Positions 1,482 to 9,415 of a stretch of DNA of 57,149 bases are shown in pieces (position 1 is the stretch's first letter; every line of letters begins with the position of its first letter). A model generated the notes under the pieces. It made no database searches, was not told the DNA's origin, and worked only from the letters and a program-made list of their open reading frames with translations. A program made the translations under genes and the position numbers. The DNA comes from Opitutaceae bacterium (GTDB taxonomy: Bacteria > Verrucomicrobiota > Verrucomicrobiia > Opitutales > Opitutaceae): the NCBI GenBank assembly GCA_027485815.1, contig JAIXQE010000014.1, positions 1-57,149 of the forward strand, written 5' to 3'.

Positions 1482-2848
1482 AGTCCTTCCTTCGACTCGG
1501 TCTTTGGGAAGCACGCCACCTGCGCCGCGACGGCCAGGCGTGGCTCGTCTGCGGCGCATTGTTCGCTGCCGCCGTGCTGGCCATCTGGGTCGGTGATCGC
1601 CGGCTCGCGCGCCATCGCGCGGAAATCGCGGGGCTGCCCGCCCACTACGCCGCGCAGATGGCCAGCATCGCCAAGGAATTCACGCCGCAGGGCGAGGCGG
1701 GCTATGTCGCCTATTACACGTTTTTCCCCACGCATCACCCGATGCCGCCGCTCGCCGGCCTCTCGGTGGGCGTGCGCGACATCGTGCCGAACGTCACCTG
1801 GGTGCGCCTGCTCGGTATTGAGGGCCAGCTCTACGAGGCCGATCTCGGCAACCCCGCGCTGCAGGCGCTCGGCCACTTCGACCTGGCGTTCGTATTTTGC
1901 GCGCTCGCGCCTCTCGCGCTGCTCGTGCTCGCGCACGATGCGTTCACGCGCGAACGCAACAGCGGACGCTTCCCGCTCGTCGCCGCCCAAGGCGGCGCGC
2001 TCGGCGCACTGCTGGCCGCGCGCGTCGGCGTGCGCGCGCTGGCCGTCGCGCTGACGTGCACGATCGCGTTTGGCCTCGCGTGCGCGTGGCTGCGCGTGCC
2101 GCTCGCCGCGGATGCGCTCGGCTGGCTCGCCGGTGTTTGGTCACAGCTGGCAGTCTGGGCCGGACTCGCGGCGCTCATCGCCGTCGTGGCACGCACGCCC
2201 GCGGCGAGCCTGGCGGTGTCTTTGTCGGTTTGGATCGTGCAAGGGGTGCTGTTGCCGGCCCTGCTCAACCTCGGCCTCGCGACCGCGCTGCCCGTGAGCG
2301 AGGGCCTCGAACTCACCGTTCGGCAACGGCAGGAAAGCCACTCCGCCTGGGACAAACCGCGCGCCGAGACGATGGGGAGGTTTTTCGTGCAAAACCCCGA
2401 CTGGAGCGGCACGCCGCCCGTCACGGGTCGCTTCGCGTGGAAATGGTACTACGCCATGCATCAGGTCGCCGACGAATCCGTCGCGGCCGAGTCCGCCGCC
2501 TACGTGCGCAACCTGCGGCGCCGGCAGGACGTGACCGCGCGGCTGGCATGGCTGGTGCCGCCGGCCTATGCGCAGCTGCTGTTGAACCAGCGGGCCGGCA
2601 CGGACCTCGACGCGCACCTCGCGTATCAGGATCGCGTGCGGGCGTTTCACGCGGAACTGCGCGCGTATTTTTATCCGCTGTGCTTTGCGGACGCGACCCT
2701 GACGCCCGCCGATTTCGCCGCATTTCCGCAATTTCGCGCCGTCTCGCCAACTCCCCCGTCCGGGCTCTCGCCGTGGCCGCTGCTCCTCCTCGGCGCCGGC
2801 GCTTCCGCTCTCTCCTGCGTATTCCTCCGCCGCCCATCTCTCGCCTAA
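1478..2848 (+). CDS. ABC transporter permease, DUF3526 family (second of two)
   Basis: This 456-residue paralogue of the preceding permease has the same layout: one N-terminal helix, a large extracytoplasmic domain, a group of central helices after the HDAFTRERNSGRF coupling segment, another soluble section, and a C-terminal helix. The ATG at 1478 lies inside the stop of the previous gene (ATGA) and is preceded by GGAAGGAG about 10 nt upstream, one of the better ribosome-binding sites in the window. An upstream in-frame ATG at 1427 would run deep into the previous gene, so 1478 is preferred. With the ATPase eight bases downstream it completes a two-permease, one-ATPase exporter-type module. 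Confidence 0.85.
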   Translation: MKSFLRLGLWEARHLRRDGQAWLVCGALFAAAVLAIWVGDRRLARHRAEIAGLPAHYAAQMASIAKEFTPQGEAGYVAYYTFFPTHHPMPPLAGLSVGVRDIVPNVTWVRLLGIEGQLYEADLGNPALQALGHFDLAFVFCALAPLALLVLAHDAFTRERNSGRFPLVAAQGGALGALLAARVGVRALAVALTCTIAFGLACAWLRVPLAADALGWLAGVWSQLAVWAGLAALIAVVARTPAASLAVSLSVWIVQGVLLPALLNLGLATALPVSEGLELTVRQRQESHSAWDKPRAETMGRFFVQNPDWSGTPPVTGRFAWKWYYAMHQVADESVAAESAAYVRNLRRRQDVTARLAWLVPPAYAQLLLNQRAGTDLDAHLAYQDRVRAFHAELRAYFYPLCFADATLTPADFAAFPQFRAVSPTPPSGLSPWPLLLLGAGASALSCVFLRRPSLA

Positions 2849-2856
2849 ACGAGCCC

Positions 2857-3564
2857 ATGCTCACCATCGAAGCCCTCACGAAACGTTTCCCCGGTGCGCC
2901 CGCGCCCGCGGTGGACAAGCTCAACCTCGCCGTCGCTCCCGGCGAACTCTTCGCGCTCCTCGGTCCGAATGGCGCGGGCAAGACGACCACGATCAATTGT
3001 CTGCTGGGTTTCCTCGTCCCCGATTCCGGGCGAGCGATGATCGACGGCCTGGACGTCGTCGCGCAGCCGCTCGAAACTAAACGTCGATTCGCTTACATCC
3101 CCGAGCAGGTAAACCTCTACGGCTACTTCAGCGGGGTGGAGAATCTCGCTTACTTCAGCGAGCTCGCCGGCCGCCGCTACGCCGACGCCGAGTTGCGCCG
3201 CTTCCTCACGGACGCCGGTCTGCAAACGGCGGCTCACGACCAGCGCGTGAGCGGCTACTCGAAAGGCATGCGCCAGAAAGTCGGCATCGCCATCGCACTC
3301 GCTAAACAGGCCAAGGCCCTTCTCCTCGACGAACCCACCAGCGGCCTCGACCCGAGTGCCAGCCATGAATTCAGCCAGCTCCTGCGCAAACTCCGCGAGC
3401 GCGGCGTCGCGATCCTGATGGCCACGCACGATCTCTTCCGCGCGAAGGAGGACGCCACCCGCGTCGGCATCATGCGCCACGGCAAGCTCGCCCACATCCT
3501 CACCGCCGCGGAACTCAGCCACACCGACCTCGAGAAACTCTACCTCGAAACCATGCGCGCCTGA
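2857..3564 (+). CDS. ABC transporter ATP-binding protein
   Basis: This 235-residue ABC ATPase should energise the two DUF3526 permeases just upstream. The Walker A motif GPNGAGKTT is at residues 36-44, the ABC signature appears as GYSKGMRQ at 133-140, Walker B LLLDEP at 155-160 and the switch histidine at 191. The signature has YSKGM instead of LSGGQ, which is common in ABC-2 exporters of the CcmA/NatA type. The start was set at the ATG at 2857 because the upstream open frame is only antisense or out-of-frame shadow over the permease. It is the third gene of the cassette, eight bases after the second permease. Confidence 0.9.
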   Translation: MLTIEALTKRFPGAPAPAVDKLNLAVAPGELFALLGPNGAGKTTTINCLLGFLVPDSGRAMIDGLDVVAQPLETKRRFAYIPEQVNLYGYFSGVENLAYFSELAGRRYADAELRRFLTDAGLQTAAHDQRVSGYSKGMRQKVGIAIALAKQAKALLLDEPTSGLDPSASHEFSQLLRKLRERGVAILMATHDLFRAKEDATRVGIMRHGKLAHILTAAELSHTDLEKLYLETMRA

Positions 3565-3591: not shown

Positions 3592-4149
3592 ATGAAAACA
3601 AGCCTAGCCTTGTTGGCATTCCTCTCGCTGGCGCCGATTGCGGCGCAGGCCCAGACTGCCCCCCCGCGGCCAAATCCCGGGTCGCTTGCTCCGTCGGCTG
3701 CCGGCGCGCCCTCGATCCAGCTCGAGAATTTCGTGGTCACGGGAACTGCGATCCGTGCGATCGCCCCCGTCGCCGCGCCTCTCTTCACGTTCAGTCAAGA
3801 GGACATCGAGCAGAGTGGCGCCCCGAGCCTCTCGGAATTCCTGCGGCAGCTGCCGCAGAATACCTGCGGCGGAGCAGCCGCCGACGAGGGCCGCGTGCTG
3901 GGGGCTTTCTTCGGTGGGAGCGCGGTTTCTCTGCGAGGCTTTGGTCCCCAACGGACGTTGACCCTGCTGAACGGCCACCGCATCGCGCCTCAGGGCGACG
4001 GCAATTTCGTTGATATCAGTTTCATCCCGTCGGCGGCACTCGAAAAGGTCGAGATGGTGCCCGTGGGCGCTTCGTCGATCTACGGCGCCGACGCGGTCGG
4101 CGGCGTGGTGGCGGCGCATCGTCGCGAGCGTTTCGCGGTGCACGCCTAA
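3592..4149 (+). pseudogene. TonB-dependent receptor, plug domain only (truncated)
   Basis: The 185-residue product begins with a signal peptide (about residues 1-21, ending AAQAQ) and then matches the plug domain of TonB-dependent outer-membrane receptors, including LRGFGPQRTLTLLNGHRIA, a VDISFIPSAALEKVEMVP segment and SSIYGADAVGGVV. Family members then run on through NIITR-like residues into a barrel of roughly 500-700 residues. Here the similarity stops at GGVV, and twelve unrelated residues lead to a stop lying within a 19-bp tandem repeat. No barrel is present downstream, so it cannot work as a receptor. It is best read as a deletion remnant, possibly of a duplicate of the receptor whose end is at position 23. 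Confidence 0.8.
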
Positions 4150-4173
4150 GGGGTCGGTGCACGCCTAAGGGGT
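4136..4173. repeat. 19-bp tandem duplication at the truncated receptor end
   Basis: The unit cggtgcacgcctaaggggt occurs at 4136-4154 and again, identical, at 4155-4173, followed by the first bases of a third copy. The stop codon of the truncated receptor is inside the first unit. A short perfect tandem duplication exactly where a gene loses its homology suggests slippage or end-joining during the deletion. Confidence 0.85.
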
Positions 4174-4311
4174 CGGTCCGCTGATTGTTGCATCCCGGGC
4201 AGGAGAGCGGTCCTGTCGGCCTGAAATTCCGGTAGGGTAGGTGCTGGTGTGGGGGCCGAGTGCATCGCTTCTCTGACTGCATACGGCACGGGAGGGTCGT
4301 TGGGCCGTCCG

Positions 4312-5514: not shown

Positions 5515-5769
5515 ATGAGCACGACGCAGATTCCCGTTTCGGCCTTCAAGGCGCAGTGTACCGCCCTGCTCCGCGATCTCGACGCCCATCCGCAGCGCAT
5601 CGAAGTCACCAATCGGGGGCGCGTCATCGCCGTTGTCTCCCCTCCGTCCTCGGAACGTACCCTTAACCCCGCGGCCTGGCTCGGTTCCCTGCGTGGCTCC
5701 GTGCTGCGCTACGAGGCGCCTTTCTCCCCGGCCGCCGATCCCGCCGAATGGGGCGCCGCGCGTGACTGA
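5515..5769 (+). CDS. Antitoxin, Phd/YefM (prevent-host-death) family
   Basis: The 84-residue product begins with the fold typical of Phd/YefM antitoxins: IPVSAFKAQCTALLRDL followed by a VTNRGRVIAVVSPP strand turn. The N-terminal part should dimerise and bind DNA, and the less structured C-terminus (from about residue 50) should mask the toxin. The PIN-domain toxin starts nine bases after its stop, giving the standard antitoxin-toxin order. The GAGG directly before the ATG is too close to be a normal ribosome-binding site. Confidence 0.85.
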   Translation: MSTTQIPVSAFKAQCTALLRDLDAHPQRIEVTNRGRVIAVVSPPSSERTLNPAAWLGSLRGSVLRYEAPFSPAADPAEWGAARD

Positions 5770-5778
5770 GCCGCCCCG

Positions 5779-6177
5779 ATGCGCTACCTGCTGGACACCC
5801 ACACCCTGATCTGGGCGCTCGAAGCCCCCGAGCGGCTCCCGGCGCAGGTTCAGGCCATTCTGGGCGACCCGGCCAACCTGCCTTTCGGAGTCGCCTCCAT
5901 CAGCCCTTGGGAGATCGCCCTGCTCAGCACCCGCGGCCGCCTCCAACTCGGGCGCCCGGTCTCCGACTGGCTCGCCGCTGCCCTCCATCCTGACTTCGTC
6001 TCCCTCCTACCGCTGCCGCCTGCCATCGCGGTGGACAGCTGCACCCTGCCGGGCAGTTTCCACGCCGACCCCGCTGACCGGATGATCGTCGCCACGGCCC
6101 GCCACCACGGGCTGACCCTGCTCACCGCGGATGCCGCCATCCGGGCCTACCCGCACCTGCGGACCCTCTGGGATTAA
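5779..6177 (+). CDS. vapC: PIN-domain ribonuclease toxin, VapC type
   Basis: This 132-residue PIN-domain protein starts MRYLLDTHTLIWAL, carrying the first catalytic Asp (D6). It continues with the conserved SPWEIALL glutamate and the DPADRMIVATARHHGLTLLTAD block that supplies the remaining acidic metal ligands. Such toxins are Mg-dependent RNases, usually cutting tRNA or rRNA. The set looks complete, so it may be active. Its stop at 6175-6177 overlaps, on the opposite strand, the stop of the second toxin gene (6174-6176), so the two modules meet tail to tail. Confidence 0.85.
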   Translation: MRYLLDTHTLIWALEAPERLPAQVQAILGDPANLPFGVASISPWEIALLSTRGRLQLGRPVSDWLAAALHPDFVSLLPLPPAIAVDSCTLPGSFHADPADRMIVATARHHGLTLLTADAAIRAYPHLRTLWD

Positions 6178-6575
6178 GCCCGCCGGAGGCGCGTCGGGTC
6201 GCCCGTGTCAGGCCGGATCTCTTCAATGCGGCCTGCAGCAAGGTCCTCGCGCAGCAACTCCAGGCGCCTCGTCAGGGCTCGCTGAAAGGCTGGGTTTCGC
6301 GAACTCAGGTTTTCCCCGACCTCGTCCTGCTTGGTGCGGTGGAAGAGGACGAAAAGGTCTCCCTCGCGGACCAGCAGCAAGTAAAGGATTCGTCGCGGAC
6401 CCTGCGCCGTGGTGGCTTAGGCCTTGAGCAGGCGGGTGCCCGCGGGGAGTCCCCGACCAGCGATGGGCGTCGCCAGACAAATCTCCGCCGCACCGAGCAG
6501 CGTGCTCCGGTCGGCGGGGGAGATCTCCCGCCCGAATTCGCGCTGCCGGATGCGCTCGGCGATGAACAGCGCCAC
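6174..6575 (-). pseudogene. Toxin of a RelB-linked module, interrupted by an in-frame stop
   Basis: A GTG at 6575, three bases after the antitoxin stop, opens a frame of 133 codons ending at 6174. Codon 53 is TAA (positions 6419-6417). The upstream part reads ALFIAERIRQREFGREISP and ends LLKA-stop. The same frame then continues ATTAQGPRRILYLLLVREGD and KQDEVGENLSSRNPAFQRAL. Position, size and the LYLLLVREGDLFVLFHR strand pattern suggest a RelE/ParE-like addiction toxin, though family assignment is weak. A single nonsense change would explain the break. The downstream half could be re-initiated at the TTG at 6380, but that would lack the N-terminal helices. Confidence 0.6.
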
Positions 6576-6578
6576 GAA

Positions 6579-6833
6579 TCAGCCCTGCTCCGGCTTCCTT
6601 TGAGACCAAAGGGCACCGATCTCATCCATCTGCCGCTGGTGCGCGGCGTCCACGGCCACCTCCGTCACGCGGATTCCGGGGGCTTTCAGTTCGAAGGGGA
6701 TACTCCGGGTCCGCACCACCTGGCTGAGGAAAAGTCGCACCGCCGAAGGCACATCGAGCCCGATCTCCTGCAGGACGGTCTCGGCTTCCGCGCGAAGATC
6801 TTCATTTAACCGAATTTGTAGTGTTTTAGTCAT
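6579..6833 (-). CDS. Antitoxin, RelB/DinJ family
   Basis: The 84-residue product begins MTKTLQIRLNEDLRAEAETV and continues LGLDVPSAVRLFLSQVV-like sequence, the ribbon-helix-helix DNA-binding part of RelB/DinJ antitoxins. The C-terminal half, ending SQRKPEQG, would wrap the partner toxin. It lies upstream of, and nearly overlaps, the interrupted toxin gene. With its toxin broken it is probably a relic or serves as a repressor or anti-addiction antitoxin. The ATG sits in a palindrome described separately. Confidence 0.8.
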   Translation of the reverse strand: MTKTLQIRLNEDLRAEAETVLQEIGLDVPSAVRLFLSQVVRTRSIPFELKAPGIRVTEVAVDAAHQRQMDEIGALWSQRKPEQG

Positions 6834-6884
6834 AAAAACGCAGGGTTATGGCCAGTTTATGATTTTATTAGGATCGGTAGTCAA
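6830..6884 (-). promoter_or_regulatory. Possible promoter and operator of the RelB-type antitoxin
   Basis: A perfect 7-bp dyad (tcataaa at 6830-6836, tttatga at 6856-6862) covers the start codon. Reading on the minus strand, TTGACT at 6884-6879 resembles a -35 box, with TAAACT or ATAAAC 18-19 bp downstream. Ribbon-helix-helix antitoxins commonly bind such palindromes. The spacing is longer than ideal, so only the dyad is firm. Confidence 0.35.
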
Positions 6885-7006
6885 TGCAGGCGTCAACCCC
6901 GCTAGTCTCACTTGCTTGGGTCTAGTTCCGCGCCAGCTCCGGTCCAAGTTCCCGATCCTCTGCCAAGCTTTACCCTTCGGTACTCCTTGAGTAAGCCTTC
7001 GGTCAT

Positions 7007-7091
7007 CCTTCGGTTATCCTTCGGTCTCTTAGAGGAGGCTCATTGGCATTCCCTAGGTAAAACCGAACAATAACCGAAGGATAACCGAAGG
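7007..7091. repeat. Perfect 19-bp inverted repeat built from ccttcggt units
   Basis: The left arm 7007-7025 (ccttcggttatccttcggt) is the exact reverse complement of 7073-7091, with 47 bp between. Each arm contains two copies of an 8-bp unit 11 bp apart, close to one helical turn. Further single copies lie left of it. This arrangement could bind a protein on one face of the DNA, or mark the ends of a small non-autonomous element. Confidence 0.75.
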
Positions 7092-7288
7092 GTTCAGGTA
7101 GGATCCAGCTAGGATCAAGGCGGGATCAAGGGACGAGTAAAGCGACGAGCAGGAGCGCGTTAACCCAGCGTATCCAAGCGACTTAAGGGAATTTGACGCC
7201 GCGGAAAAGGCGAGCTCCGCGTGCCCTGCGGGCCAGTTTGGTCCGACAAGTAGCCCTGCTCTTCGGTCGTTGAGGCGGCTAGCTGTCC

Positions 7289-7309
7289 CTTAACCTTATT
7301 TAGGTTAAG
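7289..7309 (-). terminator. Weak hairpin after the two-component operon
   Basis: cttaacc (7289-7295) and ggttaag (7303-7309) pair perfectly around a 7-nt loop, 13 nt beyond the histidine-kinase stop on the minus strand. There is no T run, so termination is possible but unproven. Confidence 0.35.
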
Positions 7310-7321
7310 CGCTTGTGCGAC

Positions 7322-8737
7322 TCAGACCCTCGCGATAGGGGCCGCGGGCAAGTGCACGCGCAGGCACGCCCCGCCCTCGGGGGCGGCGGTGGCCCGGACG
7401 GTGCCCCCGTGGGCCTCGACGATCGCCCTCACCATGCTCAGGCCCAACCCGAGCCCTCGCTGGGAACGGCTGGCGTCGGAACGGTACAGGCGGCGGAACA
7501 CCGCTTCCCGCTCCGCGTCGGGGATGCCGGGACCATCGTCCCTGACCTCCAACTCTGTGCCCTCCGGCGCGGGCCGCACTGCCAGGACCACATTGCCGCC
7601 CTCGGGGGTGTACTTGAGGGCGTTATCGAGGAGATTGTTCACCGCCTGCCCCAGACGCACCGCATCCACCCGCGCCGGCACGGGTACGGCCTGCTCGATC
7701 CGCACGCGGATACGCCGTTCCTCGGCCACCTCCCGGTAAAGGTCGACGGCGCGATACACCAATTCGCCGAGGTCGATAGTTTCCCGGTGGAGCCGCAAAA
7801 CGCCGGCCTCGGCGGCGGAAACATCCAGCAGCACCTCGAGCAGGTGGAGCAACCGGTCGGTCTCCTCGATGCAACTGGCGAGCGCCGCGCGGGCCTCCGC
7901 GGGATCACCGCCATCCTGCAGGGCCAGTTCCGCCGCGCCGCGGAGCCGGGTCAGGGGCGTGCGGAGATCGTGGGCGAGGTTATCGAGCATCTCACTCAGC
8001 CCGCGGACGTGGACCGCGTTGCGCTCGAGGAGCGTGTTCAGTTGCCGCACCAGCTCGGCCAATTCGCCGCGGCCGGCGTCACCCGGCACGCGGGCGGCAA
8101 GGTCGCCGGTCGCGAGGATCCGGCCGGCGGTCTCCGCCACGGCGCGGAGCGGGCCCGTCGCCCGCCACGCCACAAGCATGCCCAGCAGGAACGACAGGAG
8201 CAGGGCGCCGCCGCCGGCGAGGGCGAAGGCGCGGCGCAGCGGGGCGAACAGCACCGTCTGGCTCTCGATCAGGATGCCCGCCTGCAGGAAGTTGCGGTCG
8301 GGTAGCGTCACGCCGGCGATGGCGTAGTCGCGCAGGGCGTCCTGCGGGATGCGCACGGTGTAAGTCGGGCGGGTGACGATCAGGCCCGGAAAGGGGAGCC
8401 GTTCCACCTGCGTTTCGACCCAGTCGGGCGGCACCGAGACCAGGACGAGGGAATTATCCGGGCGCAGGACTCGGACGAAGAAGGCGCGCCCGCCGCCAGC
8501 GGCGTCCCGGTCGAGGCGCGCGCGGAGCAGGGCGGGGCCACCGCGGGCGTAGAGCTCCGCGAGCTCGGTGGCGCGCCGCTCCACGGTGGCCTGCTCCCGG
8601 TCGTTCAGGGCCTCCGTGAGCGTCCAATAGAGAAACCCGAAGAGCAGGGCGGAGCCCACCGCGAACACGCCCGCGTAGAGCAGGGCCAAGCGCAGGGCCA
8701 GCGAACGGCGGAAACGGTGGAGCCGGTCGGTCGCCAC
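7322..8737 (-). CDS. Sensor histidine kinase (OmpR-partner type)
   Basis: This is a 471-residue inner-membrane kinase. A first membrane helix (about 13-40) and a second (about 169-191) enclose a periplasmic sensor domain of some 130 residues. A HAMP region follows (192-245), then the H-box LAHDLRTPLTRL with the phospho-accepting His256. The N-box AVNNLLDNALKYTPE is near 365-379, G1 DDGPGIP at 400-406 and G2 GLGLGLS at 428-434. All catalytic motifs are intact. It starts three bases after the response-regulator gene, so the two form one operon. The sensed signal is not evident. The DegP-type protease upstream on the same strand suggests, but does not prove, an envelope-stress role. Confidence 0.9.
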   Translation of the reverse strand: MATDRLHRFRRSLALRLALLYAGVFAVGSALLFGFLYWTLTEALNDREQATVERRATELAELYARGGPALLRARLDRDAAGGGRAFFVRVLRPDNSLVLVSVPPDWVETQVERLPFPGLIVTRPTYTVRIPQDALRDYAIAGVTLPDRNFLQAGILIESQTVLFAPLRRAFALAGGGALLLSFLLGMLVAWRATGPLRAVAETAGRILATGDLAARVPGDAGRGELAELVRQLNTLLERNAVHVRGLSEMLDNLAHDLRTPLTRLRGAAELALQDGGDPAEARAALASCIEETDRLLHLLEVLLDVSAAEAGVLRLHRETIDLGELVYRAVDLYREVAEERRIRVRIEQAVPVPARVDAVRLGQAVNNLLDNALKYTPEGGNVVLAVRPAPEGTELEVRDDGPGIPDAEREAVFRRLYRSDASRSQRGLGLGLSMVRAIVEAHGGTVRATAAPEGGACLRVHLPAAPIARV

Positions 8738-8740
8738 GGT

Positions 8741-9415
8741 TCAACCCCTGCCCGGGCGGAGCACGTACCCGACGCCGCGGACGGTCTCGATGCGCCGATG
8801 ATCCGGATCAATCTTCGCCCGCAGCCGCGACATCACGACGTCCACCACGTTCGTCTGGGGGTCGAAGCTGTAGTCCCAGACGTGCTCCAAAATCATCGTC
8901 TTGCTGACCGGGCGCCCCGCGTGGCGCAGCAGGAACGCGAGCAGCGCGAATTCCCGCGGCTGCAGGTCGACGGGCGCTCCCGCACAGGTCACCGCGCGCG
9001 TCACGAGGTCGAGACTCACGTCGCCCGCGGCGAGCCGGGTCGCCTCCGGGGCGGCGGTCGCGCGCCGGATCAGCGCCTGCACCCGCGCCAGCAATTCGGA
9101 AAACGCGAAGGGCTTCGTGAGGTAGTCGTCGCCCCCCGCCTGCAGTCCCCGCACGCGGTCCTCGACGGAACCCTTGGCACTGAGGAACAGCACCGGCAAC
9201 TCGCGCCGGGCGGCGCGGGCCCGGCGGACGAGGCTGATCCCGTCGAGCCGCGGGAGCATCACATCGACGATCGCGGCGTCGTAAGCGGTCGAATCCAGCA
9301 GCGCGAGCGCGGTGTCGCCGTCCGGGGCGTGGTCCACCGCGTAGCCCGCCTGCTTCAGGCCCCGGGTCACAAAGGACGCGATCTTGGCATCATCCTCGAC
9401 GACGAGCACGCGCAT
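8741..9415 (-). CDS. Response regulator, OmpR/PhoB family
   Basis: The 224-residue product has a receiver domain with the acidic pocket E7-D8-D9, phosphorylation site D51 (IVDVMLPRLDG), S79 and K101 (LTKPF). A C-terminal winged-helix domain follows, with LQPREFALLAFLLRHAGRPVS and the DPQTNVVDVVMSRLRAKID recognition region typical of OmpR/PhoB. It should bind DNA as a phosphorylated dimer and take its phosphate from the kinase encoded immediately downstream. Confidence 0.92.
   Translation of the reverse strand: MRVLVVEDDAKIASFVTRGLKQAGYAVDHAPDGDTALALLDSTAYDAAIVDVMLPRLDGISLVRRARAARRELPVLFLSAKGSVEDRVRGLQAGGDDYLTKPFAFSELLARVQALIRRATAAPEATRLAAGDVSLDLVTRAVTCAGAPVDLQPREFALLAFLLRHAGRPVSKTMILEHVWDYSFDPQTNVVDVVMSRLRAKIDPDHRRIETVRGVGYVLRPGRG

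Follow-up and report, generated by a model that had tools for sequence, protein, structure and literature searches.

Opposed rows of 11-bp units in an Opitutaceae genome belong to a dispersed intergenic repeat family, a candidate docking site for a DNA-binding protein

The 57,149 nucleotides of Opitutaceae DNA analyzed here, referred to as the window, contain an interval in which short repeats face each other in opposite orientations, raising the question of what such an arrangement is for. An earlier note on this DNA offered three candidate readings: a protein-binding array, an old plasmid origin, or a small non-autonomous element. We find that the repeat belongs to a dispersed, non-coding, intergenic family in which 11-base units oppose one another across about 35 bases.

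The left arm of the window array (6974-7025, + strand) consists of five head-to-tail units of 8+3 bp that repeat at an 11-bp step, with unit starts at 6974 (CCTTCGGT), 6985 (CCTTGAGT), and 6996, 7007, 7018 (CCTTCGGT). It is followed by a core of 36 bp (7026-7061), to which no strand is assigned and whose two half-boxes, CTCTTAGAGG at 7026-7035 and CCTAGGTAAA at 7052-7061, are unlike each other. The right arm (7062-7091, - strand) comprises three inverted units, likewise at an 11-bp step, which start at 7062 (ACCGAACA) and at 7073 and 7084 (ACCGAAGG). Degenerate outer units on the - strand keep the 11-bp phase of the right arm across 7095-7135 (CAGGTAGG, CAGCTAGG, AAGGCGGG and AAGGGACG), and their counterparts are present, with one difference, in the orthologous arrays of two relatives, G019 and G009. 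With five left units against three right units and fading units to about 7135, the array is larger than previously stated. A repeat scan of the window detected a period of 11 at 6974-7025, 7061-7091 and 7095-7116, confirming the earlier description of ccttcggt units that run direct on the left and inverted on the right, 11 bp apart. The perfect 19-bp arms around 47 bp were also recovered, as complementarity between 7007-7025 and 7073-7091, and the outer units of the two arms do not match. Likewise, the interval was said to be free of genes and less GC-rich than its surroundings, and it is: positions 6834-7321 hold no predicted gene, the sole listed open reading frame there being short (6912-7073), and the GC content is 53.7% compared with 71.8% for the whole window. 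When up to 3 mismatches are allowed, the double unit CCTTCGGTNNNCCTTCGGT has 7 matches in the window, 6 of them inside the array, whereas 100 shuffled windows had 0.88 matches on average and never more than 5. Elsewhere in the window, at 4136-4177, there is a perfect 19-bp tandem repeat of 2.2 copies (CGGTGCACGCCTAAGGGGT).

A genome-wide search for further copies of the arm located about 13 loci in the source genome (4.08 Mb in 232 contigs). At up to 2 mismatches, the double unit has 29 and 31 matches on the two strands compared with 1 and 2 for a reversed control, and grouping the matches by place, by eye, yields about 13 arrays. These lie on contigs C8, C11, C33 (with one exact unit in each arm), C42, C87, C134, C139/C145 (apparently a single locus across two overlapping contig ends), C183, C196, C197, C198, C224 and C231, and a few degenerate relatives are found on C31, C119, C172, C183 and C223. 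The distribution of the family among relatives is patchy. An exact double unit occurs in 10 of 142 genomes (the source genome and its relatives), namely in 9 of the 27 genomes of the genus including the source, which is 8 of 26 congeners, and in one genome of the same order outside the genus, where there is one match; of the nine within the genus, G004, G007 and G012 have a single match each. Among 387 genomes of the phylum, just two of which belong to this genus, the two-armed pattern was found in the source genome only. A congener with a 10.3-Mb genome (G025) carries separate dispersed 11-bp arrays (L227-L236) whose units all contain ATCCT (ATCCTGTACNN, ATCCTTCTCNG, ATCCTTSTTTG), all in a single orientation, and some of these sit within repeats of ~80-460 bp.

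A scan of named genomes returned at least 80 loci in at least 111 stretches, from Opitutae bins and many Bacteroidota. Among the matches listed, the Bacteroidota are chiefly Chitinophaga (at least 18 loci), Paludibacteraceae, other Bacteroidales and Capnocytophaga, and some of the single matches from other phyla appear to be chance hits. Of the 80 listed loci, 21 have the exact double unit on each strand, 8 of them from Chitinophaga and 13 from Opitutae/Verrucomicrobia among the matches listed. Five Chitinophaga genomes have 34-82 double units apiece at up to 2 mismatches, compared with 0 for the reversed control, and those of C. barathri group by eye into about 18 places. Variation in the unit itself is seen within this genus: in C. 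deserti (G145) the unit is mostly CCTTCAGT among the matches listed, C. sedimenti has an extra array of TTCGCT units beside the array of L162 (L162 about 2699-2782), and strain E66 has an array with a different unit word, CCTCCGTC, at L319. Both of these other-word arrays (L319 and L162) adjoin a TTCAGT or TTCGGT array. At L319, positions 1665-1694 and 1730-1759 form a perfect 30-bp inverted repeat, variant unit included, with a gap of 35 bp.

We measured core length as the distance between the innermost units. This count started from 50 loci in Opitutae and 28 in Chitinophaga, reduced to 40 and 23 by dropping arrays that did not have an exact double unit and both arms, along with repeats of the same core, while orthologues having different cores were kept. 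The core is 35-37 bp long in 36 of the 40 Opitutae arrays and exactly 35 bp long in 20 of the 23 Chitinophaga arrays. Seven cores are off-length, and four of these (47, 24, 25 and 46 bp) differ from 35 or 36 by one 11-bp step, whereas the other three (44, 44 and 45 bp) do not. The Chitinophaga cores have TAAACACCCTCAAA-like text in common. The Opitutae cores are built from two of about four half-boxes, for example CAGAGGTAAA, TTTACCTAGGTAAA, TATTTCAACnnnTTACGT and TCTGACTGTAGAAATC, and the members of a pair are mostly unlike each other, as judged by eye. A nearly fixed core distance combined with unlike core sequences favors the idea that it is the spatial geometry that matters.

We then compared 13 orthologous pairs of arrays from 10 locus groups, all within the genus, aligned together with 150-bp flanks. 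Mismatches amount to 35/673 positions in the units (5%), 26/174 in the spacers (15%), 110/460 in the cores (24%) and 916/3433 in the flanks (27%), so that the units evolve about five times more slowly than the flanks, on a sample in which the pairs are few, their members are partly shared, and units were marked in one member of each pair by similarity to the consensus. Since the spacers are less conserved than the units, homogenization between copies is disfavored as the cause of unit conservation. In G019 and G009, orthologues of the window array occupy the corresponding position with 94-95% identity, and the differences fall mostly in spacers, core and flanks. Another orthologous pair, L271 and L278, differs by one whole 11-bp unit. 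Several sites have been inherited vertically, and conservation in the Opitutae arrays is best at the inner units and fades outward. The possibility that the repeat is unique and unconserved is excluded by the multi-copy family and the conservation of its units. The related suspicion of a common dispersed repeat that lacks a function proved right with respect to dispersal, but the lack of function is made less credible by unit conservation.

The earlier note also placed the array next to toxin-antitoxin genes, and Pfam matches to PIN and RelB nearby agree with this. A nearby toxin-antitoxin pair (5515-6177, + strand) is composed of a Phd/YefM-like antitoxin gene (5515-5769, + strand), assigned through a weak PhdYeFM match of 21.6 bits that is below the Pfam cut-off of 29.8, and a PIN toxin gene (5779-6177, + strand), which is the gene nearest to the orthologous array in G019. 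The PIN gene is separated from the array by a segment without strand assignment (6193-6923), a neighbor outside the array, that carries relB (6579-6833, - strand). In the G019 and G009 orthologues this segment is replaced by ~78 bp, and among the three genomes with an array at the window locus the segment is found in the source genome only. Two short open reading frames downstream of relB (6174-6575, - strand) have no Pfam match and are possibly the remains of relB's toxin gene. On the other side, a two-component system consisting of an OmpR-type regulator and a kinase occupies 7322-9415. Array and PIN gene occur together at this locus in G000, G019 and G009. No array was seen beside the kinase at the other 22 kinase-matched loci, including that of G010 (kinase 94% identical), although at least two of these stop too short to be judged and, with identities of 59-73% for most of the matches, orthology is uncertain.

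Among 29 Opitutae arrays flanked on each side by a predicted gene, a count made with a crude gene finder and including orthologues, the flanking genes are convergent at 13, tandem at 13 and divergent at 3; for 15 Chitinophaga arrays the numbers are 5, 7 and 3. Convergent gaps outnumber divergent gaps in both groups (18 versus 6 together, p 0.02, orthologues included). Opitutae arrays often adjoin toxin-antitoxin-type genes. In the source genome, the next gene among the neighbors scanned with Pfam has such a domain at 5 of 13 arrays: PIN on C8 and on C231, RelB on C197 (with PIN beyond), BrnT on C224, and a nucleotidyltransferase on C11 that was counted by reading rather than by Pfam alone. Two of the 17 PIN genes in this genome adjoin an array and three lie within two genes of one, compared with expectations of 0.12-0.15 (P 0.006-0.009) and 0.24-0.29 (P 0.002-0.003), respectively, if 3000-3700 genes are assumed. 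In a sample of Opitutae neighbors, 7 of 10 are of toxin-antitoxin type, a biased count for which mostly small genes were picked and which includes two AbiEii matches just below Pfam's cut-off and two nucleotidyltransferases assigned by reading. For Chitinophaga, where small genes were also picked, the count is 0 of 10 proteins scanned, and we rejected a toxin-antitoxin association in that genus. At L258 on C231, a ~1.27-kb segment (1949-3221) comprising a PIN toxin-antitoxin pair and an array lies between convergent genes, and in G019, G009 and G007 the same two genes are separated by 34-49 bp with neither array nor pair. The Opitutae association may point to intergenic hot spots for the gain and loss of such genes. 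Other repeats were seen in these surroundings. Hairpin-like GTGTAGC-CGGGGC repeats, resembling GTAG-tagged REPs, occur near arrays at the right flank of L258 and at L056, L135, L277, L279 and L282. A one-armed 11-bp repeat of TTCGAT units (L279 1618-1666) lies ~1.3 kb from a two-armed array, with a fasciclin-domain gene (2070-2543) between them, and this is the one gene with repeats on both sides, the layout expected of a composite transposon, in a periodicity scan of 59 loci, a coarse scan that missed many known arrays.

Given the conservation of the units, the 11-bp step and the nearly fixed core length, the protein-binding array of the earlier note is the reading that fits best, with binding itself inferred. 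We assign a probability of roughly 0.55 to a dispersed chromosomal repeat whose units would dock a putative DNA-binding protein in two opposed rows. In this reading, each 8-mer would be contacted by one DNA-binding domain, and the 11-bp step would keep successive domains facing roughly the same side of the helix. A cooperating protein could then fill both rows and meet or loop across the core, much as ParR does on parC. Our guess is that such a complex, lying between genes, might organize the chromosome, serve in its segregation or mark a transcription boundary. New copies would arise rarely and would then descend vertically with gain or loss of 11-bp units.

An alternative is that the array is a REP-like hairpin that works at the level of RNA or of single-stranded DNA, either in mRNA end protection or as a terminator. 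The strong predicted RNA fold of the window array (-59.2 kcal/mol, z -7.55), the scarcity of arrays in divergent gaps and the perfect inverted repeat of E66 all speak for it, but folding is inevitable for a single unit repeated in opposed rows, which accounts for the first of these. We exchanged arms between arrays, leaving out 17 orthologous Opitutae arrays so that 23 Opitutae and 23 Chitinophaga arrays remained, with four variants of the test each; the test draws its power solely from differences in spacers and variant units. The arms paired no better within than between arrays: 28.13 own versus 27.98 swapped paired bases of 33 in Opitutae (p 0.08-0.29; borderline at zero offset, p 0.075), and 26.04 versus 26.54 of 33 in Chitinophaga (p 0.93-0.996). 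Spacer complementarity gave p 0.11 and p 0.90, respectively, so neither spacers nor arm swapping lent support to an RNA or cruciform hairpin. This lack of preference for the partner in the same array speaks against selection for a hairpin, as do the mismatched outer units of the window array's two arms and a region, 6800-7400, that is devoid of terminator-like sites. At the gathering score, Rfam matched tRNAs only in the window and 8 loci, and no array; an RNA family was rejected on that basis, and we regard the hairpin as unlikely. Operators for a regulator of the OmpR/PhoB, MerR/CarH or antitoxin type, for example that of the two-component system at 7322-9415, are very improbable. Regulators of these kinds are able to recognize tandem repeats spaced at 11 bp, according to the portions available of the reports on CarH and PhoP, and the array has antitoxin genes and the gene of an OmpR-type regulator nearby. 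However, arrays are rare in divergent gaps (3/29 in Opitutae and 3/15 in Chitinophaga), the neighbors scanned are unrelated to each other, and different toxin-antitoxin families adjoin the same array units. The neighboring response regulator in particular was rejected given the different distributions of kinase and array: the kinase gene is matched at the DNA level in 25 of the 27 genomes of the genus, compared with 9 of 27 for the double unit. Neutral minisatellite slippage devoid of function would explain why unit number shifts by a whole 11-bp step and would be in keeping with the ATCCT arrays of G025, but it does not sit well with units that evolve about five times more slowly than flanks or with opposed arms and a nearly fixed core length in two phyla. 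It is already disfavored, and we consider it highly improbable.

The array might instead be a selfish copy of a non-autonomous, MITE- or REPIN-like mobile element whose arms are transposase sites, which is possible but rather unlikely. The copies are dispersed, one family spans two phyla, C. sedimenti copies at different sites have about 170-183 bp in common at 77-91% identity, and the left end CTACTGACAT is common to 10 of 17 oriented Chitinophaga copies. Likewise, two non-orthologous loci of one genome bin (L279 2725-3147 and L282 2744-3134) have ~425 bp around the array in common at 81% identity, a likeness hinting that a larger stretch between genes was copied, or that the bin is mixed. 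Array and toxin-antitoxin genes are also missing together, from the L258 site in three relatives and from the window locus in G010. Against this, the inner units of the Opitutae arrays are the best kept and the outer ones fade, which is the opposite of a terminal repeat; MITE-type terminal inverted repeats at conserved ends were not found there, the outer units being degenerate. Orthologous sites hold copies with conserved units, and the source genome has 4 tyrosine-recombinase (PF00589) genes, on C232, C14, C220 and C131, and none on array contigs. A tyrosine-recombinase attachment site, which the mixed half-cores had suggested, was rejected because no integrase is encoded on array contigs. 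Thus, of the small non-autonomous element proposed earlier, the dispersed multi-copy family stands, while no common end was seen by eye in Opitutae and no clean target duplication at the one empty site compared (L258, ~1.27 kb versus 34-49 bp). The old plasmid origin was rejected: there are about 13 genomic copies, no Rep domain was found among the neighbors scanned, such as the rep gene that lies beside plasmid iterons, and neither the window array nor the L164 array has a plasmid match. Viral contigs have no exact match to CCTTCGGTNATCCTTCGGT, and the L164 array has one weak 32-bp match among phages (E 0.1).

Returning to the docking of a protein in opposed rows, we compared the family with known systems. 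The parC repeats of R1 reportedly flank a promoter. As far as the available text of the report goes, parC of R1 consists of 11-bp direct repeats and that of pJIR4165 of 8-bp repeats 3 bp apart, both bound by ParR (PMC9426499). The window family resembles them in its tandem direct repeats of ~11 bp but differs in that its rows are opposed, chromosomal and present about 13 times per genome, with no parM or parR among the neighbors scanned with Pfam and no plasmid match for the two arrays searched. CarH binds tandem 11-bp direct repeats, but in the portion available its operators are at carotenoid-gene promoters and have the consensus nnnnTnnACAn (PMC9304148), and PhoP is described in the part seen as recognizing 7-bp repeats with a 4-bp spacer (PMC4832192). 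ParR on parC and CarH on 11-bp repeats are the nearest working analogues, and we do not claim membership in the parC family. The arrays are short, extragenic and multi-copy, as are REPs, BIMEs and REPINs, and O. terrae is noted, in the text available, to be highly enriched in GTAG repeats (PMC3733652). However, the array unit ACCGAAGGATN is an 11-bp tandem repeat with no GTAG- or CGTC-tagged stem-loop, and its arms have no specific mutual complementarity. In copy number and location the family resembles REP/BIME or MITE elements, whose defining marks are absent where testable. BrickBuilt MITEs of Porphyromonas gingivalis are also intergenic tandem-repeat elements, with 19 copies in one genome, but have a 23-nt repeat between leader and tail subunits, and the portion of the report seen does not mention opposed arms (PMC4596501). 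The TAACTGA heptamers of Beggiatoaceae, Cyanobacteria and Bacteroidetes are mostly intergenic direct repeats with a patchy distribution over phyla, but, going by the available part of the report, they have a 7-nt unit that, in the genome chiefly examined, mostly sits immediately before start codons (PMC4679880). Among the papers listed, mostly from outside subscription journals, titles and the beginnings of abstracts gave no description of the array family.

Several observations count against docking. The strong RNA fold and the perfect E66 inverted repeat are what a hairpin would predict, three cores (44, 44 and 45 bp) are off the 11-bp step, core divergence is near the flank level (24% versus 27%), and half-boxes are mixed. 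A more far-reaching proposal, which we regard as speculative and improbable, is a centromere- or macrodomain-like multi-site system in which two opposed filaments of one protein, seeded on the 11-bp arrays, would bridge the ~35-bp gap at about 13-20 intergenic sites and organize the chromosome, protein and sites having passed horizontally between Chitinophaga and the Verrucomicrobiota clade. If the units do dock a protein, then they would represent a new DNA-binding system with a rigid architecture that is common to distant phyla. The family would then be either a dispersed chromosomal counterpart of arrays like parC or a REP/BIME-like element constructed in a new way.
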